A DNA stretch of 64,000 nt from Pagrus major (taxonomy: Eukaryota > Chordata > Actinopteri > Spariformes > Sparidae), in NCBI RefSeq assembly GCF_040436345.1, contig NC_133216.1, positions 14,278,110 through 14,342,109 on the forward strand, in the 5' to 3' direction. Shown piece by piece: positions 13,601 through 37,324 of the stretch. Under the pieces are notes generated by a model. The model did not search any database. It saw only the letters and a program-made list of their open reading frames with translations, and had not been told where the DNA came from. Both the position numbers and the translations under genes were made by a program. Every line of letters begins with the position of its first letter. The stretch's first letter is position 1.

Positions 13601-13927
13601 TGAGGGAAGAGGGAGAGGGCGATCGCAAAGATGATAAGGCTGCAAGGTCTGAGAGCAAGCTAACAGTGAAGTAATGCTGCGTGTGCAGTTTGTAGCCGCG
13701 GACAGTTCGTCATAACCGCTCTGATCCTAAAATCGCCTCGACTGAAGCAGAAGTTAATCTTCTGCAGGAGACATTGTGCTGATTAACTCCGTACAGTGGT
13801 GGAAAGTTACTTAATAGTTACTCAAGGGTACTTTGTAACTTTGTGCTATGAAACTCTGACCTACATAAGCAAACAAGACCATCAGTGAGAAGATTGGCAA
13901 TTTCTTTATAGTTATTATAATTATTCT

Positions 13928-15027: not shown

Positions 15028-15216
15028 GCACTGATTCTGTAGTGAGGATATAGTAAAGTGTGAATACTGAGCATTACTTCAGGTGGGAGTTGTAAGCCGA
15101 AGCTTAATGACTCCAGCTGGTCCATCTGTCGGCTACCTGCTATCTGCTGGCCTTAATGAACTGGCTGCGAGCCCTCCGCAGACCAGCACATCTCATTAGC
15201 ACCATGTCTGCTAAGT

Positions 15217-15218
<2 letters not shown>

Positions 15219-15288
<70 letters not shown>

Positions 15289-15300
15289 TGTGTGTGGGTG
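15219..15300. repeat. (GT)n microsatellite
   Basis: About 80 bp of GT repeats with two GG interruptions near the end. Confidence 0.97.
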
Positions 15301-17559
15301 TTCTTCCACTTCCCCTCACTACCGTTTTCCTTATCTTATCACTCCGCCTTTTTTTTTTTGTGCCCCGCTCTGATCTTTTCTCTTCTATCTCATCATCGTT
15401 TTGTTTCGCCTCCCTCCGACCTCTTTGTTCTCTTTCTCCGTCACATGTCTGGAGATCTGACAAACTCCGGGAGTCCTGCAAATCGTTAGTCCACCACAGC
15501 CTCCGACATTTCTTTGCCCAGTTTCTTTACATACTCCCACATAATTATCCCTTTTTCCCAGTCCCTTTCTCCTTTGTAGTCACTCTTCTCACCTTTTCCT
15601 CCCATCTGTTGCAGATATACTGGATGTGTCTCCACTTGGAGCTGACTCAGTGCTTTCTGACACACCAATTTTCCCTCCCCTAACATTTTGCACATTCACT
15701 GCAACCCTTCATCTTCTCTTCTCCTCCTTGCATGACTTCTTTTTGCCTCTAGCTAACGTTAGCATTGCTGCCGACCTCCTGCCCTTAACCTCCCCCCAAA
15801 TCCATCTCTCGCTGACTTCACACCTCACTCACCTCCTGTGCCCATCACTTGCTTCCCTTCCTCTCCTCCCCTTCCGGCGGTGCGCTCTCACCGCAAAAGA
15901 CGTGACTACACATCCATGTAGCCCTTTAGGAGAAACCTCACCCATTTGCATGACAGGCGCTGGTGCGTTTCTCAGAGGGAGCGATGGATGGAGAGAGAGA
16001 GAGGAATTGTAGGAGAAGGTGTTGCTCTGAATTATTCATTTCTGGTCTATAGGATGAACAAATGCATCAGAACACCTGTCCTCTGTTATCTCTCCAGAGT
16101 GTGATATCTCTGTATGCTCAAAGTCATCATTTGAAGATGTCCAGCTTAAGCCCGAGTCCCCTGCCGCAGGATGGCCTTATACAGGCTGACTTTATCTTTG
16201 CACAAGGCTATGAATTTTAATAAAATATCTAGATTTAGTCACGCAACGACCTGACCCATTTATCCTGGATTAGTCTGGAAGACTCGTCAGAGAGTAAACA
16301 ATAAAGAACCTGGTCCACGAGTGTGTTCACTGACAAACAGGGTTTTTTTTGGATGTCCTTCCTCACCACACTGATGTATCAGCTCGTCTCTTTCTCTCTG
16401 CATGGCTGCAGGTTGAGGTTTTCTTGAATCAGCACCCAGCTGCAGCCCTGGCGTGTTGGGGCAGTGAATCACTTCTGATGATAGTCCTCTTTTTTTCAAG
16501 GCGTAGAGCAAAGATAGAAACACACACACACACTTTCCACAGAGGTGGAATGAGAGTTACTCAAGTGCAGGTCTTAAAAGCCTCTTCACACCAGTATTGT
16601 CTTCGACTTGGTTGTTGAGGTAGTCGTTACTTGTCATACAGTATTGGATATTGTGTCATAAATCGATGGTGTGAAAAGGCTTTCATGCTTCAACTACACT
16701 ACTTTTATTTCACTGCTGTGGTCAGAACAAGATTTTACTGAAACATGATCAGATTGTGAAACATTACGCATTTGTACATATTAAACTACACACTGGTATA
16801 TAAGGTTTTTAAGAATAGCTTGACCTTGACATCATTAAAATATTCCAGTATACGATAAATGTGATATACTTTGATTTTGCTGCAAACACATAAGAATAAT
16901 TTTGATTGTAGGACTTTAACCTGCAGTGGAGTATTTTTATGCAGCATGGTTGGTATTTTTAACCTCAGTAAAATATCTCAGTGTTTCCTCCACCACTGAT
17001 TTTCAATGCCTTATTTGAATCCACCTACTGCATTATGTATAAAGGACATTCATTATTATATATGGATTATGCATTAAGTGTAGCGGATGCAAACACTTAC
17101 GGAGGTTATGTGCATTTTTTTTTACACTAATGAGAAAAGAAGGGCTACCTGTTACAGCTCTCTAGCTCTTCTTTTGTTTTTTTTGTTTGTATAACTTGTG
17201 GTAAACCTGCAAATTATAACCCAGTAAATGTAAAAGATGCCAATTTTCCCTTAATATCCAAGCATACTGATATTTGCAACAAGGAACGGGCACTCAGAAA
17301 AAGTCTCATCCATGTACAGGTCAGAAACATAACCCACCTCTACGATTATAACTTCTATTTGGCCTTCGTCAACAAAAACAAACATCACGGGTGTTACGGT
17401 GAAGATCAACTGGAAGCGAACAAATCCCCTCAGATAATCAATGAAACTGTGAAGGATTACAGAATTACATTTTGTCGTTTATTGCAATATTAAAGTCAGT
17501 CAAGGGTATTAGTGGCAAATGTTTGACAGATGTTTTCTCTGTGTTTTTCTCTTTCACAG

Positions 17560-17617
17560 AAGTCCTTCTCTCTGGTGTTGGATGCACTGGACTACGACAA
17601 CGACACGTCAGATTCAG
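17560..17617 (+). CDS. Jagged-like gene, exon encoding the end of the MNLL/C2 domain
   Basis: The acceptor is tctctttcacag and the donor is TCAG|GTGAAG. Starting in phase 0, the exon reads [19 protein letters not shown] and matches the short third exon of JAG1, where the last C2-domain strand has the pattern LLVEAWDxxNDT. Human JAG1 exon 3 also starts in phase 0 and, as I recall, is 52 bp long. NDT is a potential N-glycosylation site. This is the most 5' exon of the gene that I can support in the window. Confidence 0.85.
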
Positions 17618-20600
17618 GTGAAGCTGCAGTGTGTGTTTGTGCGTCTGTGAGAAAGGGGAGGCTGAATAAATGAAAAGCTTGATCCTAAGATAATAAGAAA
17701 GAGTTGATTTTTTTAATGCGTACATCTATGATCCTCCTCCTCCGAAGACATATTCTGCTTGTTTAAAGTTCGAAGGCTACTTAGCAAAGTTGAGAATGAC
17801 TGTAGACAGCCGTGTCAGTGAAAATCAGATGCTGTCATCTAGGCTAATGTTATGTTTGATCGATCTGAGGGAGATCTAACCAAAGCCAGTTAGCTTTTAG
17901 CATGACCAGTTGGTGTTATTATTTTTCTCCATGATGATTGTTGACTCGCTTCCTTAATAATGTGTATTTATAATAATAAAGCTAGGTTAATTTTCAGCAT
18001 CTCTAGTCGGTGTTAATATAATGATTATATTTAGCCACTGCATTATTAATGTCGATAACAAATTAAAGACAGATCTTTCAATTAGGCATACAGGAAATGG
18101 GTCTAAAAAGTTGTTAGGCTATATTAGCTTTAGCTAAGGCTCGCTCTGACTGCACTCCGGCTAACTTTAACTAGCTAGTTACAGTCAAGGTAGTCTGGTT
18201 TTTTAACTTCTGTTTTGTTGTACCTGGAAATTTCCCTTTTTGTTTTTTAAAGTACTCAAACAAATGTTAGAGAGTGTGATTAGATTTGAAAACTTTGTCC
18301 AATATGTCAAAACTGACCCACAGGCTATTTTGCCATCTAAGCAAGGTCAGCTTTTAGCTTTTAACTAAGATCTATGGTACAATGGGTTATTTTCGGTTAA
18401 ACAGATGTCAAAAAGTCAGAGTATGGCCTTTACTTTATTTTGACCTTGGTCTATCTCTCTTACCTATAAGTATAGTTTTCAACAAGCTACATTTCCATGG
18501 AGGCAAACGGTTCATGAGAGCTTGTTTACGAGTTAGTGTGGTTTAACATGGTGGAACAATGTGAAAATATCCCCTTTGTCTCTGTGTCTGTGATCATACG
18601 CGGCTCGAAAGTCTTTTATCCAGGCCCTTTAATTTCCTGCTCGTCTCCTTGTTGTTTCTACTCATAATCAGGAAAAGCTCCGTGACAGGGAATGTGAGCT
18701 GCGTGCTATAAAAAGCATAACACGCACACACACACATACACACACACACACACACAGATGGAGACAGATGTTCCTATGCCTTCCTCATTCCTGACATGCC
18801 ACAGTCGTCCCTTTCATCCCGCCATCCCCAGTCGTATCCAAAAGATGGCTGAGATAATGAGAAACTGGGAGCTGCACCAGAGATCCTTCTCCTCTTCTGC
18901 GTTCGTCTCTCCTGTCCTCTCCATCCTCTCCTTCCCTCTGCCCTCCAGCGCTGCTCTTACATCTTGTTTGCATCATCTGTCGTTTCCACCTGAGCTCCTG
19001 ACAGCCCTTACATTGGGTCTAAAGCCGTTCACTAGGCCGGCAGCTTAGCTCAGCCCAAACACGGGCGTCCCGTAGCAGTCTGAATGGACTTATCAGGCCC
19101 TGCCGCTAATCAGAAAGGATTACCCAGCACGACTGTACCTTCTGAAACAGTCCTTGGAAATAGCGAGAAAATATGATTTCCTTTGAGCACCAACAGTCTG
19201 ACCTTCACTGAGTTTAAATAAAATGGAGCTAGTGATAATTTTGCAGGTCTTGTTTCCATAGTTTTGGTCCTCATTTTTATTGGATATGAGAACGTTTAAC
19301 TGGATCAGGGAACACAATCACATTGCTACAACAGGCATTTTTGTTTTATCACATAGAACGTGAAGATTTTCAGCTGCAAGAATGAATTTCAGTGAAAGAT
19401 TTTACTAAAAGATGTAATAACATGAACAGTATATCACACTTGAGATCCACGTCTAGAGGAGATCACGCCAGCCGCCACATCTGTCAGTATGTTGACATTC
19501 TGACCCAGTGTTCATCACTACGTACATTATTATATCAGTACCCTGTACTCATGGGTCGGACCACACCCATCTTTGAACTCAGCCTTCATTTTGATCTCAA
19601 CTACACACCTGTAAAGCTTCATGACTGCATCGTGTACGGTTGTGACAAAATCTGTCCACAGACACCTGGCAATGTACTCAGAGTCGCTTGGGCCCCGCTG
19701 GACTAGGTGTCTCCAGGAACATATTTTTGTCATTACGGCACACACACACATACGCACACTCACACTCCCAAGGTGAAAACAATACAAGCTGCTTGCTGTC
19801 TTGGCAGATAATGAGCAAGAGGAAATCATTTCATATTACAAATCACAGCGTGAATGTAGCTAATGTGGTGAAACGACCCCTGGAGGTTTGTTTAAAACCT
19901 GTCTGATCTCTGTGTCTTGCCCCACCTGACTTCTTTTTGGCAATGTCACCCAAAAAAAACCCCAGATCTCAAGATCTCAGCATTTAAAGGCACATTGTGG
20001 AGTCTTCTTGTTGAAAGTTAAAGTTATTTTCATGTTTACGTTCACTGTTTCTCACCAGAACACATTGTGCGTAGGTTTGATGCTTCATAAACATTTGCAG
20101 AGCTGATTTTTTGAAAGAAATTGAACCCTGCATTGCTAGCAGTCCTCTTCTTCTTTGTGTTTGTTGATGTATTGCTACATCTCTCAGGACATTAAAACCA
20201 CCAACAGACGATTAAACCAGTGACAAGACTATCACGCTCATGCAACAACAAAATGGCCTCCCACTCTTTGTAAAAAAATAGCTTTTAATTTCACCACTAC
20301 AGTGTTTTAATGAGCCATAATTACCTTAAAAAAGCAGCAGTTTAATTTTCTCTGTTTTCCCCTCTGCACATATTTATAGGGTCACTGAGTGTTGGATTCG
20401 CTGCTGGTTTCACCCACGTTTCAACTGTATTGACATAACACTCATAGCCACAAAATTGCCACCACCGACAGAGAGAGAGAGTGAAATTCAATATTAAGAA
20501 GCATTATAATCTGGTCCAGCTTGTCTATAAAATTCAAAACACATGTTTAGTCTTAGTGCCTTTATCCAGATGAGGATAATTTCATCGGGGAGCGTCCTAC

Positions 20601-23600
20601 ACTGGGTTAAAAAACAAAAACAAGACACATACATCGAACATAGGGGAGACATGAATGCTATCCAGCTGATCTATTGTCTTCCATAGGTCTACTGTATTGA
20701 TTTGTCGGTTCAGGGAAGTCAAAAAGGAGGCGGTTTCTCTCCTGCAGTGTTTTCTCAGCTTCTGTCAAGGGCAAGCACTTCACAGCCAGCAGCGGGGGAC
20801 AATCACCAGAGGCTAAAGAAAGAGATTTAAGTGTTTTCGATACCTGCAGACACAATCCCCCCGTGTGTCGGCTGCTTATATTTTCTCTGCTGTAAAGTTG
20901 CTGCTGTTTGTGCCATCTAATATTTAAGCTTCTCTCTCTGTCTCCATCTTTGTCTCGTCCTGTGCTCACTTGTCATGGTGCCGTCTCATCTAATCTCATC
21001 AGAGAGGAAATCAGACTCTGTTATACACCTCTCCTGCTGTGCTGCCTGATAATGTGGTTATTGTTTTCTACTCTTCTCGCTTGTTCGTATCTGGCAGAGA
21101 AACGGTGATGTGAAATTAGCCCTTTGACATGCCAGAGTCATAAAATAATGAAAAACCCACAATGCAGTGCAGTAGCATGATGAGTGTTTGGAAACCGGGC
21201 CCGCAGATTTGACTACAGGCGGAGGCCGCTGGAGTGTCCGCTCTGTTCCCACTCCACTTTTACTCTCTTAAACACACACACAGACACACACACACACACA
21301 CACACAGATACACACACACTGGCCAATATGTGCCCCTGTTTTCATTCCTTTGTGTCAAACCACAGTGACCTCATCTCTCCATCAGGCGGTTTGCAATGTG
21401 TGTGCGCTAATAGCTGCCTCCCTTCCTCTTTGGCTCTGTTTGTCACACACACACACACACACACGCACACACACGCACACACACACAGTACACCCTTCCT
21501 CAGTCCATCGCTGACTTACTCCCAACAAGTCCTCCTTTTCTGTGCTCCTATCTCACAATCTTTCCCTTTATCATCACCACCATCTCTGTAACACACACAT
21601 ACATACGTTGAGAAACACCGATATACACACGCACACACATATTCTCAGTGCTTTGTGTGTGTTAATACCCTGTCAGAGGAGATTATAAGTGAGGTGGGGA
21701 TGACAGCGCCTCTGGGAAATCCCCTCCGGGGGTCAGGAGCGCTGCCCCCAGGCCTCGTCTGGTCCTCTCTGGTGTTCAGGCTCTCTGGTGTCCCCTGTTC
21801 TCTGGTCTTATGGCCGACCCTTGTCTCCATCGATATCCGTGCCGGTATCCTTCATTCTCATTCTCATTCATTCTTCATATATCTAAGACATATCTAAGAA
21901 ATTCCAGACAGAGAAAAATGTGAAAATGTGCCTTTCTTTTTGACTTGTCTTAAGTGAAATTGTGGAAAGAGAGATTGTTGAATGGACGGTGCAGAAAACC
22001 CTGTTGAAAACACCTTTGATTATGTGATCCAAGTTTTGCTACATTTTTAAAAGAAGTTTGTGAAGAAATGTCTTAAAACTGGTTGTTTAAAAGGCCTCCA
22101 GATGCCAAGCGCCAAGAAGTCTAAAGCAATCCTGATTGATTTTTTTGTCCAGTGTTCTGAAAAAGCCTTTCCTCCTTCCCTCCTCCCTCAGGTCAGCTGA
22201 TTGAGCGAGTCCTCCTCTCCTCCATGTTGAACCCCGGTGAGCAGTGGCAGACGTACCGTCACCACGGACGGACTCTCAGCCTGGAGTACCGGCTTCGCTT
22301 CCGCTGCGATTCAAACTACTACGGACCTTTCTGCAACAAGTTCTGCAGGGCCCGCGATGACTTCTTCGGCCACTTCAACTGTGACCCCAGCGGCTCCAAG
22401 GTCTGCATGGAAGGCTGGACAGGACCAGAGTGCAAAGAGGGTGAGAGAGGAAACTGCCCACATCATATGTCATGTAAAAGTTTTGAAAATTTACGATTGA
22501 TTGATTCAGTGAGTTCAAGTCTTTAGTTTTGTTTGGTTTAGATCAATTACGAGCTGTGAAATACTCAAAAGCACACCACATACAACAAATAATTTACCTA
22601 TTACACCCTACAGGATCAATCGCCCCCCCTTGGTGCCCCTATGTTTGAAAAAACGCAGCAAACGTGCCCGCTGTGATGCTCCTGTGGTAGATTAATCCTC
22701 ATTAAATGCCCTCTACGGTGGCCCAATGTGCAAGAAAGCATGATAATATGTATCATAGTTTGTATTTTCAATTGAAAAAGTGCATGTAGCTAGTTCCTTT
22801 TTTTATCTTCGTCACCCCTGCCCCTCGGACAGCCTGAGTCCGCCATTGCTCGGTCGACGAATGTAACAAATCCGCCAATTTCTTGGCAGGTTAGTCCAGT
22901 GACGACCTACTAGACTTTGATCACAGTGACGACAAGACTCCAGGCATGCCATCAGAAATAGTTTGCTATATACAACAACAAGTTTCTTACGGTACAGTTT
23001 GTTTTTATCCAGATTAAAGGTAAATGCTGGTAGGGGGATTTTTATTACCTTTGGACGGGGCCCGGCTAGCTTTTTTCCCCTGCTTCCAGTCTCAGTGCTA
23101 AGCTAAGCTACCTATCTGCTGGTTGTGACTTCATATTTACTGTACAAACATGAAACTGGCATTCTCAATAAGAGACAAAAGTGCATGTCCAAAAATGCTG
23201 AACTATTCCTTTAACACCACGTCTGCGTTATAATTTGTCAGTGTAATGTGATAATAGATATGGTTAATGAGTTATCTGATAACAATAATTGTAATTATTA
23301 TTATTATTATTAATTTAATCTTAAGGATTTAGAGTGTGAAAAGTAAAAACTGTTCTTTAATCTAAAGTGTGTAACTTGTATAAAAAAGCTTATGAAGATT
23401 AAATGACAGGGAAGGATCTTCGTCTTTTAACATCCATTGCTCATCTTCTTTGTCCTTTATTTGGCAAACCTTCACATCTCAGTTTGCTTACAAAGTTTCA
23501 GTTTGATGCATGAATACTTTGGAAAATGTTTGTTTGCAGATAATAATTCAGCTAATATTTCCCTCAGGATAACTTTAAGCCACTGATGAGAAAAGTTAAA

Positions 23601-23815
23601 GAATGTTTTCACTTTCCATTTATTTTTCCACCGCTCCTGACAGGGGGTTTCCTCTTTAGTGATCCCTTCCAACGTTTCTTAAAAGGTTTTTCCATGAGAG
23701 TGTCTTTCAAACGTTGGCCTCTGAAATTGTTTTTGTGATTAAGGGCCGTTAAAATAAACTTGACCCCCAAACCAGCGCCATCAGCTTTTAGTGGTAGATG
23801 TGTTGTTTTGGATTG

Positions 23816-23869
<54 letters not shown>

Positions 23870-24026
23870 GTAAAGATCAGCTTCGTGATCGTCCACATGT
23901 TTGGTGGTATTCAACCCAAGAATCAGCACACATAAGTCCACACATCTATTCCCGTTAATGTCAATACTGACAGCTTTAGGATCTGTGACACTGACACACT
24001 CCTGTACATCTGTTAGCTTCAGTGGA

Positions 24027-24061
<35 letters not shown>

Positions 24062-26379
24062 AGTGTGTTTGGGGGGATTATTCTCCGTCTGTCTGTGACT
24101 CATCAGCTGGACGACCTCACTGTGTGACCTCGGAGCGCTGCCATCGTGTTGCAATGGTAAAAAGTGAATGGAGGAAGCCAGAGTGGAAACCATGGGAACC
24201 CTGAAGGACACGCAGCTAGTTTACGGACATCCTCACTTCGTCTGACTTCCTCCTCAGCAGGTCGCTGATTGGACTGCAGAGAAGCAGGAAGTCTGAAAAA
24301 TTAGTCAGGGGTCCCTCTGTTACCCCCCGCAGGTTAATGACCGTGATGAAGTTCGGGGAGTTTTTCTCCACCTGGAAACTTTTGAAGAGCTTGTGTGAGA
24401 TTGAAGACATGTTCCAACTGTTTATGAGGTTGCTCCTCCTCATGTTATGTTGCACAACTAAGCCTGTGTTTTGGATATCTGGTGATATCTGGAGGGGTTT
24501 TTCTGTCAACTGTTTTGGATTTTCATCTAACTGGCAGATATATTCAGGGTTGATTTCAGCTTTAAATGCCCTTTAACTCAACTGGGCTTCATTCCTGTTT
24601 CATAATTACTGATTTATAATCTCTAACAGCTCTCTTTTTGTTTGTGTTTGCATGTTTTTGTTCACAGCTGTGTGCAGGCAGGGCTGTCATCAGGTCCACG
24701 GCTTCTGCACTGAACCTGGAGAATGCAAGTAAGTCCGGAGATTTAAAGCAACGGGTTAGCGTTAGTTAAGTTCTGCTGGAGCAGAAACCTCCAGAACAAG
24801 TTACAGTCAATGCGACAGTAATATGATGATATAATGTTCCCAAAGGCTAATAAGCCATTTGAAGAAAACAAGTTTCACAACATTTAATAACAGCAACATC
24901 AGCCACAGTATGCACATAAAGTGACTGATGTTACTGGTTTAAAACGGTTTCTTTCAATCCTGTGAATGTGATGTGGACTTTGCGCTTCACCTCTTCAGGT
25001 GTCATTATGGCTGGAATGGCCCTCTGTGTGACCAGTGTGTGACGTTCCCCGGCTGCGTGTACGGAAGCTGCTCCGAGCCTTGGCAGTGTGTGTGCGACGT
25101 CAACTGGGGAGGACTGCTGTGTGACAAAGGTTAGACATGTGACAGAATGAAAGAAAGCCCAGATATATTAACATGGGTATCTAATTTGTGTTTGTTGGTC
25201 TGTTTCCCTTCTTCTGTTTATTTTAACATTCCTAACTTGTAGACAGAGCTGTTTATTTCAAGGCTGTCAGACTCACATGGTCCTCCCTTTAACATTTCAA
25301 CCTGACCTTTTATACCTTCATATTTCATGCCACACACAACCACATTTTTTGTCACAGATGCAGCAGTCTCTTCATCTAGCAGGCACAAAAAAAATCGCTG
25401 TTTTATCCTGTTAGGAAACCAGTAGACCCAATAATTCGACATGATGAAAAAAAACTAGTAAAAAAAACTGTTGAAAGCTGCCCATACTCAGTACCTCCTA
25501 CTATCCAGTATGCTGTGGCACAGTTATGCAAAACGTTGTCTTTTAAATCTTAATTTCAACTCTTATGGCTTGTAAGAGTATCTTTTTTTTCAGCCCTAAG
25601 ACTTAAGAAACCTGCATATTGCTCTTTAAACTCATTACAACAGAGACACAAATCAGTAACTGAGACGAACACTTAAACTTTTATCTCAATTAGTATCTAA
25701 TTTAACTGTGTAACATTTAATGCAAATGAGGATCTCCACAGCTAAACTCAGTATATAGAGGACTGTGTCATCTGCATAGAGATGAAAGACTCTTTGCTGT
25801 CTATTGTATGTTGGTCAGGGACTTGGTGTGTGTGTGTGTGAAATGTGAAATGTGAAACATTGCATGTGCAGTATATGTTTTAAGCCAGCCGTGTTTCTTC
25901 ACACACCTTCCCAGGGATGGCCTACTGATCTTCCGTAGGAGATAGCACGCAGCTCCCTCAGGGGCTTCACCTTCTTTAACTTTTCCCACCGCACTGCAGC
26001 AAAGTTCCTCCAACATTATCCCAGAATATAACTTCCCACCTCCCACCTCTGTCCCGGTGTGGGAGCTGGGATCCGGGAGCCAAGAGAGTGCCCACGGGAC
26101 GCTGTATTGTGCAGAGGAAAGGCGATAGCCTTGGGTAAGGTGAATGTGAGCGGGGCTGGGCTGGGCGCTTTCAGATAGGTGGGGTCCTGAGCTCTTTCTG
26201 AGAATTCATTCAGGCTCTGTAAAGAGCTGTGGTGAGACAAAGAGACTGTGGGCACGGAGGAGATCATTAGAGAAAGCAGAGCTTTAATCAGCTTTAACAC
26301 TGGAGACAACAGGCCCTGCAGCTACTGGCCTGCACAGTCAGCACACTGAGCCGACCTGGATGCACTTCAGCCTCAGTGC

Positions 26380-26431
<52 letters not shown>

Positions 26432-29400
26432 TGTGTGCGTGCGTGTGTGTGCTGCTGCTGCACTCTTTACCTGAGACAAAGTCAAACTGAAGTTAACCTG
26501 GATCCATCTGCATTGTCAACCTTTTATCTTTTCTTCAATATATGCTTTTTATCTCTCTGCTGTTTTGTGTTGTAAACGACAAAATGAAAGCAGGTTTTAA
26601 TCGGACAGTTTTGTGGTTTCAGATCTGAACTACTGTGGCACCCATCAGCCCTGTAAGAACGGCGGGACCTGCACCAACACAGAGCCAAACGAGTACCAGT
26701 GTGAGTGCCAGGAAGGTTTCAGAGGAAGAAACTGTGACATTGGTGAGCATTGAGCCACTGAAAAGAAACAATGAAAGATAACACAGGAAGCCGCAGTTAA
26801 TGTGAAATTGTCGTCTGTTTTTTTTTCTCCTCTCTCATGCCTCCACCTCCTCCATCGCTCTCCTTTAATCAGTGGAACATGCATGTTTGTCATCCCCGTG
26901 TGTGAATGGCGCCACCTGTGTGGAAGACCCAACAGGCTTCAGCTGCATCTGTACTGACAGCTGGACCGGACACACCTGCGCTGATGGTGATTTTCAAACC
27001 ACACACACAAACACACACACCGCTCACGGAAACACACAGCTCTGAGCTGAGGGGCTGGACAGTGTGAGATTGCGTGTGATTGGTTGTTATTGGATCAAAG
27101 CCAGTGAGTGACTCTAATCAATCCAGCAGAGGAAGCTAAATTAGTCTGAACACAAACAGTATCAGCAGCAATCAGCGGTCGGCCTCGCCCTCCGTCTGGC
27201 TTTGTGTGTGTCGGCTGTGTGTGTATGCATTTCCACACTCATACTGACATTGCCAAAAAAGGTGAGGTGGAGCATCTTTAATCAACTCTATTGATTTAAT
27301 ATAGACTGAGATTAATCTGTGAGCTAAGGGCGTTTTTTTATTGATTCAAAATTTTTAAAACTTAATTGTCCATTAATGTAGGTATAATGGAAATGTGTCT
27401 TTCACTGGTGTAAGGCTCATATAAAGTTACATAAAGCACATATAAGACCATCAAATGCACATAAAAAGACAACACAATACATGTAGTAAATAATATGCTG
27501 TTTACTAACAGGAGTACAAGTTAAAAGTAAAAAAAACGCACCAGCTGCAGGTCATCGGAAAGTCGCGCCGGCTGCTACCGATAAGAAAATAGCGTTTTAA
27601 TCTCCTGGGCCTTATTCAGTCTTACATCTAGATGCATCCAGACTTTGTTGAGATCCAGATGAGATGGATTAGAAATGCAAGCAGAGTGTGATACAAGCAC
27701 CTCTTAAAGCACGGGGGGACACCCTTGTGATGAAAGGGGAATGGTTGTTATGTACATTTTAAGCTGTTGAGCGAAATAAGGAAAACACAAAGCCTCAAAT
27801 TTCTCCTGGTGTAACGAAAAACTGAAGACAGTGCTACTAACATCTGAAAACAATGAAACACAAAAGTAGACATACTATCAGCAGACTTTAATCTCATATG
27901 TGAGGATTTGTGCAACATCCGGTGCACTTATGATGTGTGTGTGCATGGGAAAAAAATCAAAAGTTGTTTTGGGCCAAATGAATGTAATGTTATGAGACTG
28001 TTTGCTCTGTGAGGAAACTGAAAGCGCTGTTAAATGTTAAAACAATACACACTAAACTTTAGAGCAGGACTGACATGTTGTTGTTGGCTTTAAGCATCAT
28101 CAGTTGTGGTGGTATTAGTTTGCTCAACAGTAGACAGATGCTTTTCCTAAAAAATATGCAACGCTAGACTGTTTAACGTTATTACAGTTTCTATGTATGT
28201 AATCTATGTCATGTCTAATCTCTTAAACCTGCATTAATCCACATGAGGAACTCTGAGCATTTGATATTTATTTTAAAATGGACAGTAAGATTTTTTTTGT
28301 CTGCATCACAGCAAACTAACTGGCAAATATTCCTCAGTTTTACCTTCAGATCATATCAGTCAGTCTGTATTCACATGCCCTTTAGGCACTGTCAGCCATC
28401 TGCAGTAATTTGATTTATTAACTGGCATGTAAACAAAAAAAACGGTTTCTGTAATCAGCGTAAAATATCTGAGAAACCTGGTTATCACAGCCAGATTTCT
28501 GCTGGAGAAACCTGGTCTCTGTCCATAGTAGACAGGGTTTTATAAGAGTGCATGTGCATGAAGAGAAAATAATGAAAACAGTGTGGAGGGATGAAAGAAA
28601 CATTTTTTTTACATGGTGCTTTCATGTTTGAAGATAGTTTAATTCAAGCTCACAAAAGCAAAGCAGCCAAAAGCAAAGATATCATGCCTTTTAATCACAA
28701 GTATGAATCAAGCTCAGGAATGCTGCAAAACACATTTCAAGTAGCGGGGACAAAAGAAAAAAAAGGAAAAGAAAAAGGACACCAGCTGCATGCAGTGGCA
28801 CACTCCTAGAAAGACGTGTTGCTTGTTCCTCCGTGAAACAGTTCCTGGTTAAGATCAAAATTATTTAATTATGTGACATTTAAAGTGTAACTACTACCTC
28901 TGTAATAAAAACACACAGGAAACTATTAACTATTCAACCATTTAAGGGCACAAAGAGGCCAGCTAATTTTGTAGGGCAGCAGATATGACACTTCATCATG
29001 TTTTCTCCACCTAACAGGGCACTTTATCATGTTGTTTTTTTGCACGTTGAGCCACTGAAGAGGGCACTTTATCATTTTCTATCTACCATAGGGGAATTCA
29101 AGAGGGCACTCTTGCTGCTTTTTTCCAAACATTGCTGCACCAGGGTAGGCCACAAGTCCAAATAAAGCTGGGCTCTGGATACAGGAGTTTTACAGCGATT
29201 TATTTCAGATGATTTTGCATGTTTCTGTAAAACCCCAGATAAATTCAAACTGGATGTCTCTTAATGTTGCAACTTCATGTTTGTGTCAGTTCAATATTTC
29301 TATCTCTCTCGTCACAACGCTGTGCTTATGCTCTAGTTAGGTTTAGGCAGAAAAACCACTTGGTTAAGGTTAGAAAAGCATCATCTTGGCTTAAAATGCC

Positions 29401-32400
29401 CATTTTTGGTCACTATGATCATGGATGGAGATGGTCCGACTTCCAGTAAAAAATAGCCAGTTTTGATTGCCAGAAAAACCACTGGAAATGTCCGCAGGTC
29501 TCCTTAAACACCAACTTGCAACGTGACAAAAACTGATGGAAATATCCCTGGGTTAGGGTGACTCAAAGCGTGGTCGGCCATTCCTGACACTCTGACACGA
29601 CATTTAGATTTCAGAGAAGAATATCTGTAAAGTGTAGTAAAGTTAGAGCTCGGTTTACATCTGCTTCAACACCTTAATAGTTGACTATTCCTAAAATGCA
29701 GGCCCATTTTTAGGCACATGCAGTTGGAACATTGTTTATTGACTTTATTTTCTTTGTCTGAATCTTGTTCCTTGGTACACGCTGTGTTACATCAGCTTAC
29801 AGAAGCCCTCACACCTCATATGATCTCCCACTGAAGCGTGGATAAAGGTCAAACGTGTTTTGGTCTGCGAAGTAACAACTGAGCTGTCAGAACAGTCTCG
29901 ATCATGTGCTCTGTATTTGTGTGTGAGCCGTATGTATACTCAGGTTGTGTGATTGTGTGAGTGGCCACAGGTGAGATTGGATCGTACAGGTTATGGTCTG
30001 TCAGAGCTGCGTGTGTAAACAAGCCGCGTTCCACATCCTCTGATTTCACCTCGATCAGGATAAGCTACGCTGCAGGTCGCCCACTGGCATGTAAACACTT
30101 CAACAAGAAGACAGTAAGAGGGAAGGGACAAACAGAGGAATAAAGAACAGTTTATTTTTGCTCTTGTTGTTTGTTGTCAGAGAGGCGGTCTATCTCGGTC
30201 TCTGTATGTGTTGTGGAGATTCTCTCTGGGGGTTACACAGCGAGAGGATTGTCAGGCTCGCAGGGAATGACGACCATAACCACAACACAGCTCTGCTTTC
30301 AGACTAGATTTATATATATAACCAATATTAATTAAAGGCTTCTTTGTTTGTTTGGGAGAAGTGCTGCTAGCTTGGCTTGGGTTATTACTGCTCAGAGTCG
30401 GGGTCAGGAGGATGGAAAGTGGTTGTTCTGCAGGGTGAAAAAAGGTTATGAGAGAGACAGAGCGTGAGATGTATGGGAAAAGTCTTGATGGCACTACTGC
30501 ACAAATATGACAAGTGTAATAGGATGATATGCGTGGTCAATCCTTAAAACGAGAGCTTCTCTCCTCACATTCCCTCAGTTCTTCGTATCGGTTTTTAATT
30601 TCTCTTCAGAGGAGCGAAACCAGGCGTGGCAGCTTCATTTTTCTATTTCTATTTTACCCCGTCTCTCCATTCTTTCCCCCCGTCATCCTCTATTTAAATT
30701 CACTTGTTCCTGCCTCCTCTCTGGGAAAAGGTTGGTGGTGTCAGCCATCATGTACGTGCAGCAGATTATTATATTTATCACTGTTTGCACAGAAACCAGA
30801 GGAGCAGAAAGAGAATGAAAACACAGGCTGCCAAAGCATCCGCATACCAATGGTGGCGTGGTGGCATCACACAGACACAGTGACACACACACAACATATC
30901 TTTGATATGCACACACACACTCCCATTACACAGACCAGTAGTTCATGTACAATATGTTCTCATTCTCTTCTCAGCGGTGAGGCAGTGTGATCGGAGCCCT
31001 TGCGGACGTGGAGCGACGTGTCAGGAGGCTCCTGGAGGTTACCGCTGCCTCTGCCCACCTGGATGGACCGGCAGAACCTGCCAGCTGGGTCAGTGGGTCA
31101 CGATTAAACATGTATTATATACAGTATATACCTGTAGATGGTCACTGTCTCTGAATAACCCAATACAGTGATTCCCAACCCGAGGCATTTCTACTCAGAG
31201 GTTTCTGCTGTAGCTAGCACGTATGTGAAGAGTTTGCAGAGTAGTTCAACTAATTTGGAAAAAAGTCATTAATGAATTGATTAAAAATTACATCCCCAAG
31301 TCAGTTATAACAATTAATTTAAGTGTTATTGCAATTAGCGTGCATAAAAACTAGTTAGCAAGGAAGCAGAGGAGATGGAACAGTTAGATGAAAGCGATGG
31401 ATAAACTGTTGAAACATGTCATTAAAAGTAAATAGTTGGAACATCCAGCTTTTACGCCTTCATGTGTATGCAGTACGAATGCAAACGTGACCAGTCCAAA
31501 CTACACATTGATAGTTTAATTGTTAAAAAGATATAAACCCACTTTTATATGATTAATAGCTAAATAACACCCAGTGTGACATTAAATCAAATGAACACAT
31601 TTTTGGCAATAAATGGTGGTGTTGATGACGGGTACATGAGTTCATCGGACTGGGTAGAGTAAGAAAGAATAAATTTAAATGAATTACTAAAAGATAAGTG
31701 CTTGTAGCTGCCAGTAGCTCACTGATTGGTTCAACCACTGTGTGTTCGGCCACAAGTGCACAGCTTGAGGTTCTCGAGATCAAATGATCACAAGGTGAAT
31801 ATTGTGATATACCACTCATATATTGATATTGGAAGTATATCCTTACCAAGCCATAAATAAAAGTAATGTGAACAAAGGAAGAAACTTAAAAGTAAAACAG
31901 AGATGCAAATTGTGTTTGTAAAGATGGAGGACCAAGACAATTATTGTGATTATTTTCTTAATTAAAAAATTGCTAAGTGAGAGCAAGACTAAACAAAAAG
32001 GACAGGACGAGTGCTCTCTAAGTGTTTGAGGTGCAGACACAAGGACCATTAAGGCCGTAAGACGTGCAGTTTAATTAAATCCAACACTTCACCAGACGAG
32101 CTGCCTTCATCGGGTTTCATTCGGGGGTGAAAATGTACGGTGTGTGGGACACCAGGTTTTACAAGCTTTGTAGCAAAGATTTCATTATGAGCACAGAAGA
32201 CGGCAGATTCAACTTATACAAGGTTAACAGACACGTGACATGCTGTACATGGATGCCAGAACTATGTCCGTACTATAATGCTTCAGAAGTTTAACATACT
32301 GGTGTTTGTTAATGGTGATAATGTTTCAGTCGTTGACTTAGCTTTCTATTATTATCTATAAAAAAAATAGATATTTATCATGTTCAAAGGGATCTTTCAC

Positions 32401-35400
32401 AGGATTTAAATCACTGATCTTCTAATCAGCTACATCAATCTCAGCTTTGATACACAGCTGGTTTCACAACCTGTGTGTTCAGTGGAATATGTGTGATTAC
32501 GTTTTCCATTTGAAGTGAAATATGCATTTAAAGCACAAATTAAAGAGGCAGAAATAGCTGCCGGCATGTTAATTCTCCTATAAACCCATCCTGACTGTGA
32601 ATCAGTATTCACTAAATGCACTGTCACGTCTCTGTGGGCTGCACTCGCTCATATTGACGAGTATACTCCCAGAGGGTTGTTGTGTTAGATGGTACAGCAG
32701 AGGGAATATTGTATAGCATCACGTCACACACACACACACACACATGGTGGACATACTGTATAAGGCTTGGGGGGGTTATGAAGTAAAAACTGAGACATAT
32801 TTCAGGATGACAGCCTCTCCTGCTCCTCTGTGTTGCAGTGATATGTCACTCTGACACTTGATAATCCCCCGTAGTTCCACATCACAGGTCACTGGCTCAC
32901 AGTATAACACACACACACACACACACACCCAATGTTCAAACACAAGTGATAAAACTCTTTACGGCCTGAGCCGAGAGGCAGAGCATCAGTAGTGCCTCAA
33001 ATGGTGAAAGGCAATTATACTTTCTATCAGTTTCACTCTTTTATTAGCGACTTCTGTCCCCACATTTTCTCCCAGGCTTTTCCCTTAGATAACACACACA
33101 CACACACACACACATACACACACACACATACACTTCACCGGCGTTAAATCCTAATAGGCCTCTCACTGACTGTAACAGGTTTAGATTACCTATAACTGAC
33201 TGACTACTTCCCCTTTATTCATTCAGCATTTCTTTCTAATCCTCCTCTTCTGCTATCAGAGCCAAGCCCTCGGGGGTTCCTGGCGTTTACACTCCCAGTG
33301 AGGCGGAGGCTGGGAAGAGGCACACATAAACTTAACAGAAGCAGTGAGGGGAGCTGCGCATAAACAGAGATGCTGCGAGGCATTATTTTGGATGCGATGT
33401 GCATTTGTAAACATAATATTTGACAAGCACTCCCAAGTGTTGGTGTGCGTCCTGCCAGCGTCTCCACTTTTACTTTCATCTTAACTTTGGAGGCTAAACA
33501 TCGTCGGACATGCAGGATTAGATTCTGTATCCATGAGATGTTTTTACTTATTTCAGTGAGAAGCAACACAACAAGATTACACTGATATCTCTGGTTTATT
33601 AGCTGCAACCAGCAGCTCTATGGTTTGCATTGTTGGTCGGCCCACAAATATTTCCCCACCCTTTCACGGCCACAGTTTTCGCCCTAGGAGGCTAAGGTTT
33701 GGCATGGAGGTCGAGTGTGTGTGAGAAAGTGTGTGTTTGTTTTCATGCCAATTGGCTAAAAGTGTCCGTGGTAATGGGAGGGGTCTATCGCAAAAAGGCT
33801 CATAACAGCCCTGTCCATATTGGAAAAGGCAGCGCCAGCATTGTCTGTTGTGTTGTTGTTGTCTTCACTGTTGCACAGTAAATACTGTGCAGTCCACGTA
33901 CTCATGGTTTCATACCAAGATTTCAGACATAGTAGAAAACCTCACATACTGTTTTAGCGTACAAAATAGCATGTTGGTATGGGTAGCTGAGTTTTGGTTA
34001 ACACTAGTAAAAATGCTAAGATCATGTCAATCAAGACAGTGTAAAACTTTCTATCTATGAGGCTGAAATTACTCATGGAGGTGAAGTGTTTGAGAGGTTG
34101 TGTGCTTGAGAATGCACGAACACCTGGATGCTGTGCGTACCTGGTCGCAGCTTTTACAAATTTGCGCTTGTAAATATATCTTTGAATTCGATCTTGTGTG
34201 TCCTTTCAGTTCACAACTTGTTAGTTTATTTCCTGTATAATAAGTGCTAAAACAGCAGCCTTTTAAACAGCTGTTTCTGCAATCTGCACAAAAGAATAAA
34301 ACCTGCAACTGCTATGTGTTACGGAGGAAGACCACTTATGGACATATTGTTGCATGTTTATGTAAAAATTAGAGGAAGTGGGAACAAGATTGTTGTTGTC
34401 CTGGTTTAGATCTATCAGGGACCGCAGAGATGAAATGTGGTTCATCACATCAGTATTTCTGGAAACATTCCTTCTTCTTCTTTCTCCCTTCAGACACCAA
34501 CGAGTGTGAAATGAGTATCTGCGTCCACGCCCGCTCTTGTCGCAACCTGATCGGAGGATACCTGTGTGACTGCCTTCCTGGGTGGACAGGGCCTAACTGT
34601 GACATCAGTGAGTATAAAAGGAAAAGGAATAAAAGATAAAAGAGTCCTGTGGCGGCAGGCAGTGAAACATGAAGAGCCTCAGTGCAGACCAGAGTCCCTG
34701 CAGGCAGGAGATCATTTTACTTCCACTCCAGTTACATCAATCATCTGTCACCCTGCATCACTAAAATACACAATAATTAAAGACTAACTTTTGTTTTTGA
34801 GTATTGTCTCTCTCTTTTCACTGTGTATATTGATGTTTATGGCACCATATTGCATAATTATCTGTGTGTGAAAGATTAATAAGTGTTTCCGGTCTCTCTT
34901 AGGGAACAGCAGCTGTCAGGGTTTGTGTCTGAACGGCGGACATTGTGAGGTAAGAGTCCTGGCAGTGCTGCCCTTTTCTGTCCGTCTAATTTGCCTGTTG
35001 TTGCAGTCACAACACGAATCCACTTCATTGTCTTCCTCCCACTCTCTCTCAGACTGGTGACATTATCGCCTCCTTTGTCATTCCTTTATTTGTTCCTTAA
35101 ATTAAGATTTCTCACAAAAACTCTAGAAACTACATTTTAAAGTGAATCCATGGGAATCATTTTAATTGTGTTAACGCCCAAGGCATTTCAGGCCTTCTTC
35201 TGGGGACAATACCCTCTTTTTGACATTTTGCCTCGAGTTGTGAGCAGTATTTATTCTCAAGGGGGCAAAAATGTTTCATTGCCTGAGGCAGATCCATAAC
35301 AGGCCTCCTCTCTCTCTCTTTAGTGCCCCTTTTTCCTGATGCTCCATCTGTGTCACATACATTTAAATAACATACAATATATGCTGTCCCGCATAGGACC

Positions 35401-37324
35401 AGGTGTCAGGGTCCAGATGCTTGTGTCCACCTGGCTTCTCGGGGAAATATTGCCAAAATGCTCCGAGTCCTTGTGACAGCGCCCCTTGTCTGCATGGAGG
35501 ACAGTGTGTGGAGAAAGATGGAAAGACTGTCACCTGTAACTGTCCCGCGGGATATTCAGGAATCTTCTGTGAGGTTAGAAAACCTTCATAGAAGTTAGCT
35601 CAAGGCTAGCTTAAAGTTAGATTAATACAGCGCTGTAAAAATGTACCTAAATGTTATGTCATGCTTGAGTAAGGATAGCGTGTTAAAATATTACTTTGGT
35701 AAAAGTGAAAGTCATCCATACGAACATGTACTTAATTATCAAAATTATTTATGTGGCAATAAATGTACACAAAAAGAATAAAAAGCACAAATTAAAGTAA
35801 ACATATGCACATATTTACATGTACATGACTGTATACTATGGGTCGACCGATTATCATCCTGACCAATTATCGGATACGATTATCTGAAGGTTTTTTTTCA
35901 TCCAATTGCCAATAAAGTAAATAAATTTAAATATGTGCTATTTTGGCTCTGATGCAGCGTGTAATCTGCAAAGTAACTCATAACTGAAGTTACCAAATAA
36001 ATGTAGAGACATGAAACATTTCAGTATTTCCCTTCAAATGTAGGTGGAGGTATAAATTAGCAAAAAATGTGAATACTCAAGTAAAGTACAAGCACCTCAA
36101 AATTGTGCTTGGGTACACTACACGAGTAAATGTACTCAGTTACATTTTATCACCGGGCTTATGGGAGGGTGCTCGACACTTTCCTTTCATGTCGCACAGT
36201 GGAGAATATTTTTATAATGTGATCATGTTAAGTCAGGTTGAGTGGGTGGTCACTTTAGCTGTTGGAGGATGATGTCTGGTTGCCATGGAGATTACTGAAG
36301 CCATTAACTGAAGCATAAATTGAAAACATCATGTGGCCCTCCAAGACACAACTCATCAAGTGTCGAGCGCCCTATCATAAATCAGGCTTATAATAAAAGA
36401 AAATGATGAATTTGAATAGAGGAGCAATGTAACTAAATAAGATGTCATCTTATTTATCAATTCAATCAAATATAATTAGAAAAATTATGAAAAATAAACA
36501 AATTTCAATCATAGAAAAATAAACATACTGATAGAAAATGAAGGGAAAGATATATAACATTTCATGTTGAAAAGCTTGTGAAATGACTAGAAGAAAGATT
36601 TTCAAGCCGATCTTTATTGTTTCTTCTTTCCATTATTTCAGATCACTTTGGATCTGTGCAATCCCAACCCCTGCCAGCAGGGGGCACCCTGTCACAGCAC
36701 AGAGGGCAGATACATGTGTGCCTGCCCTGAGGGTTACTATGGTAACGAGTGCATGAGCCTCAAAAATCCCTGCATTGGTCAGCACTGTCCAGGTAATCAT
36801 AATATGTGTGTGTGTTTCTTAAAAAGCGCAAAATCTCTATGAAGTTTTGTCGAACCCTCTCTGTCTCCGCCTCCATGTCTGCAGGCGCCATGTCTGACAC
36901 GACACACAGCGGTGTCAGCTTCTACATCATCCTGGTGGGCGTCTTAGCTTTAGTGATGGTCTGTGGCTGCGCCGCCTGCGCCTTCATCCTCTCCCACCTC
37001 CATCGAAAGCGGAAAAAGCAGCAGGCCGTCCCACAGGAAGAAGGCATCAACAACCAGAGGGAGTTTGTCAACCTCATCAGAAACGTGGACCGTCCCGTGC
37101 CCCTCCTGCCCCCCGCAACCGCCCCGCTCGCTCACCCTCCAGCCCCCGCCCCCGTCTCACGTTGCTACGAGGAGATTGAACTGACCCTGCCACCCTCTCC
37201 GGCACCTTCACACCCCTCTCCGGCTCTAAAGCCAGCTCATGCGCCCAAACTGGACATTTCAAACCGGGAGAGGGAGAAGTTGAACCGCTTCCACTACACA
37301 GACAGCCAGGAACTGGAGGCCTGA
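17560..37324 (+). CDS. Jagged/Serrate-type Notch ligand, short form with 9 EGF repeats (5' partial)
   Basis: Membrane ligand of the Notch pathway, signalling to Notch on neighbouring cells. Exons by splice sites and phase: 17560-17617, 22192-22440, 24668-24728, 24999-25129, 26623-26742, 26873-26986, 30975-31088, 34494-34607, 34903-34949, 35397-35573, 36642-36792, 36885-37324; they join without a frame break into 591 residues plus TGA. Domain order: end of MNLL/C2, DSL with the Jagged-type motif [10 protein letters not shown], nine EGF repeats, a helix at residues about 458-481 of the partial protein, stop-transfer HRKRKK, then a 110-residue tail with [12 protein letters not shown], close to the juxtamembrane tail of JAG1/JAG2. 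DSL and EGF1-6 read as Jagged, not Delta (for example GTHQPC and DTNECE). Odd: EGF10-16 and the cysteine-rich/VWC domain of JAG1/2 are missing. Signal peptide and MNLL exons were not found and should lie upstream of the window. Family is certain; which ortholog or ohnolog is inferred. Confidence 0.93.
17618..22191 (+). other. Intron of the Jagged-like gene between MNLL-end and DSL exons
   Basis: No exon seen. Contains (CA)n tracts at 18721-18757, 21270-21320 and 21446-21488, and a diverged dispersed repeat at about 19984-20170 that starts AAAGGCACATTGTGGAGTC. The rest is AT-rich. Confidence 0.75.
22192..22440 (+). CDS. Jagged-like gene, DSL-domain exon
   Basis: A polypyrimidine tract and acceptor (ccctcctccctcag) precede 249 nt that end in phase 1 at AAAGAGG|GTGAGA. 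It encodes the C2-DSL linker [16 protein letters not shown] and the whole DSL domain, with six cysteines in Jagged spacing, receptor-facing loop [10 protein letters not shown] and ending [12 protein letters not shown] is the module that contacts Notch EGF11-12. The JAG1 counterpart, as I recall, is a 255-bp exon. Confidence 0.95.
22441..24667 (+). other. Intron of the Jagged-like gene (DSL to EGF1)
   Basis: No exon seen. Holds a family A repeat (22998-23214), (CA)n at 23829-23866 and (GT)n at 24030-24058. Confidence 0.8.
22998..23214. repeat. Dispersed fish repeat, family A, partial copy
   Basis: Contains GGCCCGGCTAGC, CCAGTCTCAGTGCTAAGCTA and ends AATGCTGAACTATTCCTTTAA, matching the other copies of this family in the window. 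Confidence 0.65.
24668..24728 (+). CDS. Jagged-like gene, first part of EGF1
   Basis: This 61-nt exon has phase 1 in and phase 2 out, and a strong donor (GCAA|GTAAGT). It encodes [19 protein letters not shown], the start of the atypical first EGF of the Jagged DOS region. JAG1 has an exon of the same 61 nt at this place. Confidence 0.93.
24999..25129 (+). CDS. Jagged-like gene, end of EGF1 and EGF2 (DOS region)
   Basis: The exon is 131 nt, the same size as the JAG1 counterpart. It contains [12 protein letters not shown] followed by [15 protein letters not shown] and NWGGLLCDK, the conserved second DOS-type EGF of Jagged ligands. Phases 2 to 1 fit both neighbours. Confidence 0.95.
25130..26622 (+). 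other. Intron of the Jagged-like gene (EGF2 to EGF3)
   Basis: No exon seen. A long (GT)n microsatellite occupies 26382-26451; the rest is unremarkable. Confidence 0.8.
26623..26742 (+). CDS. Jagged-like gene, EGF3
   Basis: This 120-nt exon encodes one complete [20 protein letters not shown], then [16 protein letters not shown]. The GTHQPC wording is that of Jagged; Delta ligands have THHxPC. CKNGGTC is an O-fucose consensus (C-x4-S/T-C). Confidence 0.95.
26873..26986 (+). CDS. Jagged-like gene, EGF4
   Basis: This 114-nt symmetric (1-1) exon encodes [16 protein letters not shown] and ends [14 protein letters not shown] fits the O-glucose consensus and CVNGATC the O-fucose consensus. The intron before it is only 130 bp. 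Confidence 0.95.
26987..30974 (+). other. Intron of the Jagged-like gene (EGF4 to EGF5)
   Basis: No exon seen. It includes three imperfect copies of GGGCACTTTATCAT-like sequence (29017, 29062, 29102) and a dispersed repeat at 29325-29600. Confidence 0.78.
29325..29600. repeat. Dispersed fish repeat (GGTTTAGG / GGTTAAGGTTAG type)
   Basis: TAGGTTTAGGCAGAAAAACC followed by CTTGGTTAAGGTTAGAAAAG is a landmark of a well-known dispersed fish repeat. Limits are approximate. Confidence 0.5.
30975..31088 (+). CDS. Jagged-like gene, EGF5
   Basis: This 114-nt symmetric (1-1) exon follows an intron of about 4 kb. It encodes [15 protein letters not shown] and ends [18 protein letters not shown] keeps the O-fucose consensus, while CDRSPC does not fit the O-glucose one. 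Confidence 0.94.
31089..34493 (+). other. Intron of the Jagged-like gene (EGF5 to EGF6)
   Basis: No exon seen. Short (CA)n tracts lie near 32726-32743, 32909-32928 and 33091-33131. Confidence 0.8.
34494..34607 (+). CDS. Jagged-like gene, EGF6 (calcium-binding type)
   Basis: This 114-nt symmetric exon encodes [16 protein letters not shown] followed by [26 protein letters not shown] is a calcium-binding EGF start. CxxARSCxNLIxxYxCDCLPGW is almost identical to JAG1/JAG2 EGF6 and is one of the best family markers here. Confidence 0.95.
34903..34949 (+). CDS. Jagged-like gene, first part of EGF7
   Basis: A 47-nt micro-exon (acceptor ctctcttag, donor GAG|GTAAGA) encoding [18 protein letters not shown]1 has an exon of exactly 47 nt at this position. 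It moves the phase from 1 to 0. NSS is a possible N-glycosylation site. Confidence 0.92.
34950..35396 (+). other. Intron of the Jagged-like gene (within EGF7)
   Basis: A 447-bp intron between the 47-nt micro-exon and the EGF7/8 exon. Nothing else is visible in it. Confidence 0.8.
35397..35573 (+). CDS. Jagged-like gene, rest of EGF7 and EGF8
   Basis: This 177-nt phase 0-0 exon (JAG1 counterpart 174 nt, as I recall) encodes [18 protein letters not shown] and the full EGF8, [14 protein letters not shown] followed by [18 protein letters not shown] fits the O-glucose consensus. The donor is GAG|GTTAGA. Confidence 0.94.
35574..36641 (+). other. Intron of the Jagged-like gene (EGF8 to EGF9)
   Basis: More than half of this intron is the dispersed element at 35630-36155. 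The remainder is AT-rich with no exon. Confidence 0.8.
35630..36155 (+). mobile_element. Dispersed fish element, family B
   Basis: Shares in order TATTACTTTGGTAAAAGTGA, TTTGGCTCTGATGCAG, GTAATCTGCAAAGTAACT, AGTACxxxCACCTCAAAATT and GAGTAAATGTACT(C/T)AGTTACATT with 54935-55612. Same orientation. No protein-coding frame. Confidence 0.75.
36642..36792 (+). CDS. Jagged-like gene, EGF9 and start of a lost EGF10
   Basis: With the donor CCAG|GTAATC at 36793 the exon is 151 nt, the same as JAG1 exon 13. It encodes [19 protein letters not shown] to EGYYGNEC and then [12 protein letters not shown], the first residues of what is EGF10 in JAG1/2. A second in-frame donor (ATTG|GTCAGC at 36778) would drop QHCPG only. 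The next exon begins 92 bp later with the membrane segment, so EGF10 is left as a stub. Confidence 0.92.
36885..37324 (+). CDS. Jagged-like gene, last coding exon: transmembrane helix and cytoplasmic tail
   Basis: The acceptor tctgcag is followed by [12 protein letters not shown], then the helix [20 protein letters not shown] and the basic stop-transfer HRKRKK. The tail has [12 protein letters not shown] (37049-37084), which resembles the NNxRExxNxIRN/IKN segment just inside the membrane in JAG1/JAG2; this lies near where Mind bomb binds. Two proline-rich stretches and [17 protein letters not shown] finish the protein. Unlike JAG1 (ending EYIV) there is no PDZ-type C-terminus. TGA is at 37322-37324. 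Confidence 0.94.

Follow-up and report, generated by a model that had tools for sequence, protein, structure and literature searches.

How can a Notch ligand carry the head of a Jagged protein and lack both the distal EGF repeats and the cysteine-rich domain? The question is raised by a gene at positions 17560-37324 (+ strand) of a stretch of DNA from the fish Pagrus major (NC_133216.1, positions 14,278,110 to 14,342,109). The whole stretch that was analysed, 64,000 nt without any N, is referred to here as the window. Comparisons of sequence make it probable that the encoded protein belongs to a third vertebrate Jagged clade, for which we use the label JAG3. Its members would descend from a long Jagged and, although shortened, would be signalling-competent Notch ligands that activate in trans with poor cis-inhibition. 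The short-bodied architecture itself is not an artefact.

Architecture and distribution of the short form

The 12 exons found in the window join into one frame of 591 residues closed by a stop codon, with a GT start and an AG end in 11 of 11 introns and with consistent phases. In order, the protein comprises the end of the MNNL/C2 domain, the DSL domain, nine EGF repeats, an EGF10 stub, a transmembrane segment, and a tail of about 112 residues. Pfam recognizes the C-terminal third of MNNL (profile positions 100-157, encoded by the first two window exons), the part of this domain that lies within the window, and after it a complete DSL domain. EGF types of Jagged and Delta, the JAG1-like EGF2 (PF21795), and several further EGFs follow. 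The Jagged type of the head is seen from PF21795 and from the PDB, where the best single stretches are those of JAG2 (308 bits) and JAG1 (302 bits), followed by DLL1 (277 bits, over a longer stretch) and DLL4 (204 bits). The number of nine EGFs was obtained both by reading the translation and by a regular expression. The original prediction of a Jagged-type head with nine EGFs in an intact frame with good splice sites is thus confirmed.

All exons lie on the + strand. The first in the window (17560..17617, 58 nt) encodes the C-terminal end of the MNNL/C2 domain, and the second (22192..22440, 249 nt) the end of the C2 domain together with the DSL domain, which is recognized by Pfam and has a conserved Notch-binding face. 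EGF1 begins in a 61-nt exon (24668..24728) and ends in one of 131 nt (24999..25129) that also encodes the atypical EGF2. EGF3 (26623..26742, 120 nt), EGF4 (26873..26986, 114 nt), EGF5 (30975..31088, 114 nt), and EGF6 (34494..34607, 114 nt) occupy one exon each; the N-terminal calcium motif is lost in EGF5 (AVRQC) and kept in EGF6 (DTNEC). EGF7, which has also lost the motif (RNSSC), is split between a 47-nt exon (34903..34949) and one of 177 nt (35397..35573) shared with EGF8, where the motif is again lost (APSPC). The exon of EGF9 and the EGF10 stub (36642..36792, 151 nt) is separated by an intron of 92 bp (36793..36884) from the last exon (36885..37324, 440 nt, stop included), which encodes the short stalk, the transmembrane segment, and the cytoplasmic tail. 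A likely polyadenylation signal of the gene, AATAAA, is located at 38199-38204 (+), about 880 nt past the stop codon.

The 92-bp intron occupies the place of the JAG1 and JAG2 exons for EGF10-16 and the cysteine-rich domain. In PMC2770060, every gene with a VWC domain is named Jagged, and 12-18 EGF repeats are given for Jagged; the window protein has nine, its EGF9 exon joins the transmembrane exon directly, and no exon for a cysteine-rich (VWC-type) domain was found in the window. The end of the last EGF exon can be aligned to the start of JAG1 EGF10 (LKDHCRTTPC), and the missing part therefore begins inside EGF10. At the other end of the gene, the first two exons, which encode the signal peptide and most of MNNL, were sought in 1-17559 by tblastn with the N-termini of ten relatives, and the best match there had E 3.1. 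Intron 2 is therefore likely to exceed 17.5 kb.

Pagrus major is not alone in having this form. A search of 5.8 billion proteins with the window protein, allowing lengths of about 325-1034 residues, gave 719 matches, and a search with the axolotl protein, allowing about 384-1221 residues, gave 484 (8000 candidates scored); the best 120 were listed in each case. Among the matches listed, the closest relatives are mostly 700-770 residues long and come from tuna, turbot, wrasse, stickleback, medaka, pike, goldfish, and many other teleosts, with further short forms in gar, bowfin, bichir, axolotl, newt, caecilian, Anolis, and geckos. The axolotl query added, again among the matches listed, another caecilian, a turtle cluster of 41 sequences, more squamates, and a coelacanth model. 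The Pfam MNNL domain (PF07657) is recorded for many of these relatives. No short form named for mammals, birds, crocodiles, snakes, frogs, or cartilaginous fishes is among the matches listed; the sharks, rays, and chimaera found there stand with JAG1 and JAG2.

The window and tuna proteins are 92% identical over their whole length. Identity reaches 98 of 103 residues both in the C2 end plus DSL and in EGF1-3, and 98 of 104 in the tail, which indicates strong constraint. The junction between EGFs and membrane was printed for 22 relatives (ray-finned fishes, salamanders, caecilians, a turtle, and squamates). By regular expression, 15 of them have nine EGFs, six have eight (gar, bowfin, and turtle included), and bichir has seven. 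The gar model P0076 lacks EGF5, as judged by eye, a repeat that is present in the other gar model P0103, and the bowfin isoform lacks EGF6. The seven-EGF model is that of Polypterus senegalus (P0116), where EGF5 and EGF6 are missing by eye, either through loss or through a fault of prediction. Two different short forms, P0050 and P0071 (72% and 55% identical to the window protein), are found in Aldrovandia affinis and are perhaps duplicates from the teleost genome duplication.

Descent of the short clade

A maximum-likelihood tree was calculated for the part from MNNL to EGF9 (540 columns) with 46 rows, the window included, picked by hand from 200 collected proteins so as to span the groups. 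The collected proteins were drawn from homology searches and are not a random sample. In this tree the short forms make up one clade of 24 rows with support 100/100, beside a JAG1 clade of 12 rows (100/99) and a JAG2 clade of eight (96/88). Inside the short clade, the ray-finned fishes (100/99) are separated from the lobe-finned animals, namely coelacanth, amphibians, and reptiles (98/94), and the gene therefore predates the split between these two groups. JAG1, JAG2, and the short clade come together with 98/97, the preset outgroup of this tree, which contains no Delta row, being amphioxus Jagged and a Serrate-like protein from an insect. The short clade groups with JAG2 (91/86), but the AU test leaves the two other groupings standing (p values below). 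These relations are those that two rounds of genome duplication would leave, and JAG1, JAG2, and the short clade are inferred to be three old paralogs. The amphioxus Jagged is long, and the short form is therefore most simply derived by loss.

Two explanations would remove the need for an old, short gene. One is that the gene is a 16-EGF Jagged, seen through an assembly collapse, missed exons, or a splice isoform. The short last intron and the isoform numbers on some relatives' records speak for it, and the exon search covered the window alone, leaving room for exons beyond. The parts from EGF10 to the cysteine-rich domain (470 residues) of ten long JAG1, JAG2, and amphioxus proteins were used as tblastn queries in the window, and the matches (E up to 0.01) all fall on or overlap the known EGF exons; within the window, the missing-exon and collapse reading was rejected on this result. 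A collapse in the 92-bp intron is likewise not indicated by the relatives. In 22 of the 22 with the junction printed, the last EGF runs almost straight into the membrane segment, and all but the turtle carry a two-cysteine EGF10 stub there. In addition, six relatives' proteins of 685-760 residues (P0014, P0033, P0040, P0047, P0080, and P0098) come from contigs of 2357-4151 bases, whose source tag "lgn" we take to denote Logan assemblies. The gene in the window extends over more than 19 kb, which makes a genomic origin of such short contigs very improbable; they are taken as support from relatives at the RNA level. Nor was a 16-EGF ortholog found among the proteins collected. The tail motif of the clade (described below) is present in 98 of these 200 proteins, none of which has more than nine EGFs (58 have nine and 26 eight), and it is absent from the 90 that have at least 12 EGFs. 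The remaining 12 have fewer than 12 EGFs and lack the strict motif; among the seven of them whose tails were examined, P0004, P0007, P0062, and P0066 are one residue off, P0072 lacks the first lysine, and P0093 and P0164 end differently from the short-form tail. With the transmembrane segment and tail of the arowana protein as query, 66 proteins were found (of 1273 candidates), the longest of 918 residues where about 1309 were allowed. This search missed the tetrapod and bichir short forms, and would also miss distant tails such as those of sharks, and it therefore excludes a long ortholog only for tails of the ray-finned kind. Taken together, we regard an artefact or isoform as very improbable, and the original prediction that the EGF9 exon is followed after 92 bp by the transmembrane exon, without EGF10-16 and the cysteine-rich domain, has held.

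The other explanation, that JAG1 or JAG2 was duplicated and truncated recently or in particular lineages, is suggested by the automatic names of the database records (jagged-1b, jagged-1, jagged-2, and the like). We find it just as hard to maintain. The 24 short forms stand outside the 12 JAG1 and eight JAG2 rows as a clade of their own, within which ray-finned and lobe-finned members separate, and a recent truncated copy is rejected by the tree.

Returning to the old third gene, we lean toward the history in which jawed vertebrates inherited three Jagged genes, the third of which was reduced to nine EGFs and lost the cysteine-rich domain before the radiation of bony vertebrates. Fishes, salamanders, caecilians, turtles, and squamates would have retained it as a ligand that activates in trans and inhibits only weakly in cis, and mammals and birds would have lost it. 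In the same history, this loss would be the reason why a third Jagged is missing from the usual ligand lists, including that of zebrafish.

Conserved sites and predicted mode of action

Residues F199, R201, R203, and F207 of JAG1 are described as the putative Notch-binding face, confirmed by mutants (PMC3415683). This face is conserved in the window protein: R201, R203, and F207 (numbered on P0133, a lemur JAG1 of 1218 residues) are kept, and the F199 position is read from NKFCRARDD in the translation. The same R201, R203, and F207 are present in ten other short forms examined, except for a valine at 207 in the coelacanth; a valine at this position is also found in platypus JAG2 and in amphioxus.

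In the tail, two blocks are conserved among 22 aligned short forms, and most of the remaining tail is variable. The first (37049..37084, +) aligns with the N-box of JAG1 and has the pattern NN....LIRN, of which both residues of NN and the last N are invariant in the 22 tails. The position of JAG1 Asn1124 is Asn in 10 of the 11 short forms examined and gapped in the coelacanth. This Asn of the N-box is called pivotal for binding to the MZM domain of Mind bomb-1, and the N-box and C-box of the JAG1 tail are the Mind bomb-1 binding boxes (PMC11887331). The second block (37247..37285, +) has the pattern K.D[IL]SN.ER.KLN, with K-x-D-x-x-N-x-E-R-x-K-L-N invariant at the lettered places in the 22 tails, and lies near the C-terminal end of JAG1 in the alignment. 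We assign it as a putative C-box. Its front lysine, invariant in all 22 tails, stands at the N-terminal edge, which is where Drosophila Delta and Serrate are reported to have their most important lysines relative to the C-box, the box of Serrate being a prediction (PMC12577249). A search of the PDB with the JAG1 tail for Mind bomb-1 peptides found no chain. The conservation of the DSL face and of the two tail blocks indicates that the parts that would serve for binding Notch and for being pulled in are kept, with most of the tail drifting.

The stalk has changed in another manner. The N-terminal calcium motif, D/N-x-D/N, is present in 2 of 21 short forms in EGF5, 0 of 23 in EGF7, 0 of 24 in EGF8, and 0 of 24 in EGF9 (gapped rows included), and in all 21 in EGF6. 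In JAG1 the counts are 12 of 12 (EGF5), 12 of 12 (EGF6), 11 of 12 (EGF7), 11 of 12 (EGF8), and 12 of 12 (EGF9). A stalk that has about half as many EGFs as usual, and in which EGF5 and EGF7-9 have lost the motif, would be shorter and more flexible, which points to closer membrane contact.

On this basis the following mode of action can be proposed. A long Jagged gene would have lost the whole part that follows the first EGF10 residues, up to the transmembrane exon, most simply before the ray-finned/lobe-finned split. The JAG1 binding region on Notch1 is EGF8-12, and the C2-DSL-EGF1-3 head of the short form would bind Notch in the JAG1 manner. Mind bomb-1 would bind the two tail blocks and ubiquitylate the tail; endocytosis would then start, and its pull would activate Notch on the neighbouring cell. 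The head, carried on a more flexible stalk of about half length, would act at closer membrane contact, with good trans-activation and poor cis-inhibition. The last element comes from ligands with deleted EGFs: DLL4 without the membrane-near EGF8 loses cis-inhibition and keeps trans-activation, and certain deletions of Serrate EGFs are reported to uncouple the two likewise (PMC9891537). By analogy, the short ligand is likely a good trans-activator, and its cis-inhibition is probably weak.

A different role would be that of a non-signalling antagonist or decoy, which binds Notch, cannot pull, and mainly blocks or cis-inhibits. A blocking or cis-inhibiting role has been proposed for DLL3. The short ectodomain would suit such a protein, as would a tail that is mostly free to vary and a stalk and transmembrane segment of poor conservation (11 of 41 residues identical between the window and axolotl proteins). 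A pure decoy would have no need for the tail blocks, however, and the parts of the tail that are conserved are just the two that align with the Mind bomb-1 boxes, together with their lysine and pivotal Asn. The DSL face, too, has stayed intact. We therefore consider a decoy unlikely, though less so than the two explanations weighed above.

Several observations weigh against a third, signalling-competent Jagged. The AU test does not reject the groupings JAG1+JAG2 (p 0.111) or JAG1+short (p 0.188), and by total bits DLL1, not a Jagged, ranks first in the PDB (409, from three stretches of a longer construct). The first two exons of the gene lie outside the window. The coelacanth has the valine at F207, and its model P0164 ends without the short-form tail, so that it supports the clade and not the short form. 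Block 1 is gapped in the turtle and has two extra residues in squamates; in block 2, the E-R pair becomes D-R or K-R in the whole short forms P0004, P0007, P0062, and P0066. The C-box match rests on alignment within a variable tail. The calcium motif is also partly lost in JAG2, where it is found in 2 of 6 rows in EGF7, 2 of 9 in EGF8 (amphioxus counted), and 2 of 8 in EGF9, and its loss is only partly special to the short forms. Finally, the DLL4 and Serrate deletions concern other repeats, and their transfer to the short form may not hold.

Genomic surroundings and relation to known Notch ligands

About 6 kb downstream of the ligand gene lies a CLASRP-like splicing-regulator gene (about 43599-47900, +), of which four pieces, when joined, yield a DRY_EERY domain (E 1.8e-24); an RS-rich frame at about 47.2-47.6 kb is without a Pfam match. 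Zinc-finger frames of BCL11 type at 59034-63999 (+), cut by the window end, contain a BCL11A-type CCHC finger (E 1e-13) and C2H2 fingers near 63.8 kb. They probably form one gene, ZNF296-like, and no family was found for them in NCBIfam, a prokaryote library. On the human map, CLASRP and the BCL11 relative ZNF296 adjoin at 19q13.32, and 14q32 carries JAG2 together with BCL11B. The short Jagged would then lie in the sister region of that of JAG2, as would fit a lost human copy. A long simple repeat of TA type (YIYIYI frames) is located at 41347-41631, and a promoter scan and a tRNA scan of the window (bacterial code) gave nothing useful.

No description of a third, short Jagged was found among the open-licence PubMed Central papers listed by the searches, as judged mostly by titles and the starts of abstracts. 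Jagged1 and Jagged2 are listed for mammals (PMC4283135), and the zebrafish ligand list of a 2024 review has jag1a, jag1b, jag2a, and jag2b only (PMC10859470). The sequences of short forms are already in databases under automatic names; the clade and its architecture seem undescribed in the papers listed. Such a third Jagged, whose head is the same but whose stalk is about half as long and has no cysteine-rich domain, offers a natural experiment on the roles of EGF10-16 and that domain in reach, cis-inhibition, and receptor choice. The cysteine-rich domain would no longer be diagnostic for Jagged versus Delta. It may also be speculated that hidden redundancy in jag1 and jag2 mutants of fish and amphibians could stem from the short Jagged.

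Compared with JAG1 and JAG2, the short form shares the MNNL-DSL-EGF1-9 head, the Jagged-type EGF2, the EGF10 stub at the same place, and probably common descent, and alignment places its tail blocks on the N-box and the C-terminal part of JAG1. It differs in having nine EGFs instead of 16, in that a cysteine-rich/VWC domain was not found, and in the calcium motifs lost from EGF5, 7, 8, and 9. Its tails, which measure 78-119 residues over 23 rows, have a signature of their own and no MEYIV-type end.

The likeness to DLL1 and DLL4 lies in an ectodomain of similar length in which no VWC domain was found. Deuterostome Deltas have 7-8 EGFs on average (PMC2770060), and nine EGFs without a VWC domain found is near this architecture, but arrived at, most simply, by loss; the head and tail are Jagged-like, as judged by similarity, the tree being without a Delta row. 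The original prediction of a Jagged head on a body of Delta length is borne out as regards the Jagged-like head, with nine EGFs to be set beside the 7-8 of Deltas.

Jagged genes without a VWC domain have been reported from Branchiostoma, with wrong prediction, incomplete assembly, or secondary loss offered as causes (PMC2770060). They share with the short form a Jagged position by tree and the reported absence of VWC, but P0137, the amphioxus protein of this analysis, is long (1209 residues, with 15 EGFs by regular expression). The "jagged3" of an older zebrafish paper is jagged1b (PMC1781496), by its current name a jagged1 gene and not one of the short clade, and is alike in name only. The short protein departs from Jagged in two defining domain features, EGF number and the VWC domain, and looks like a Jagged by sequence and descent.

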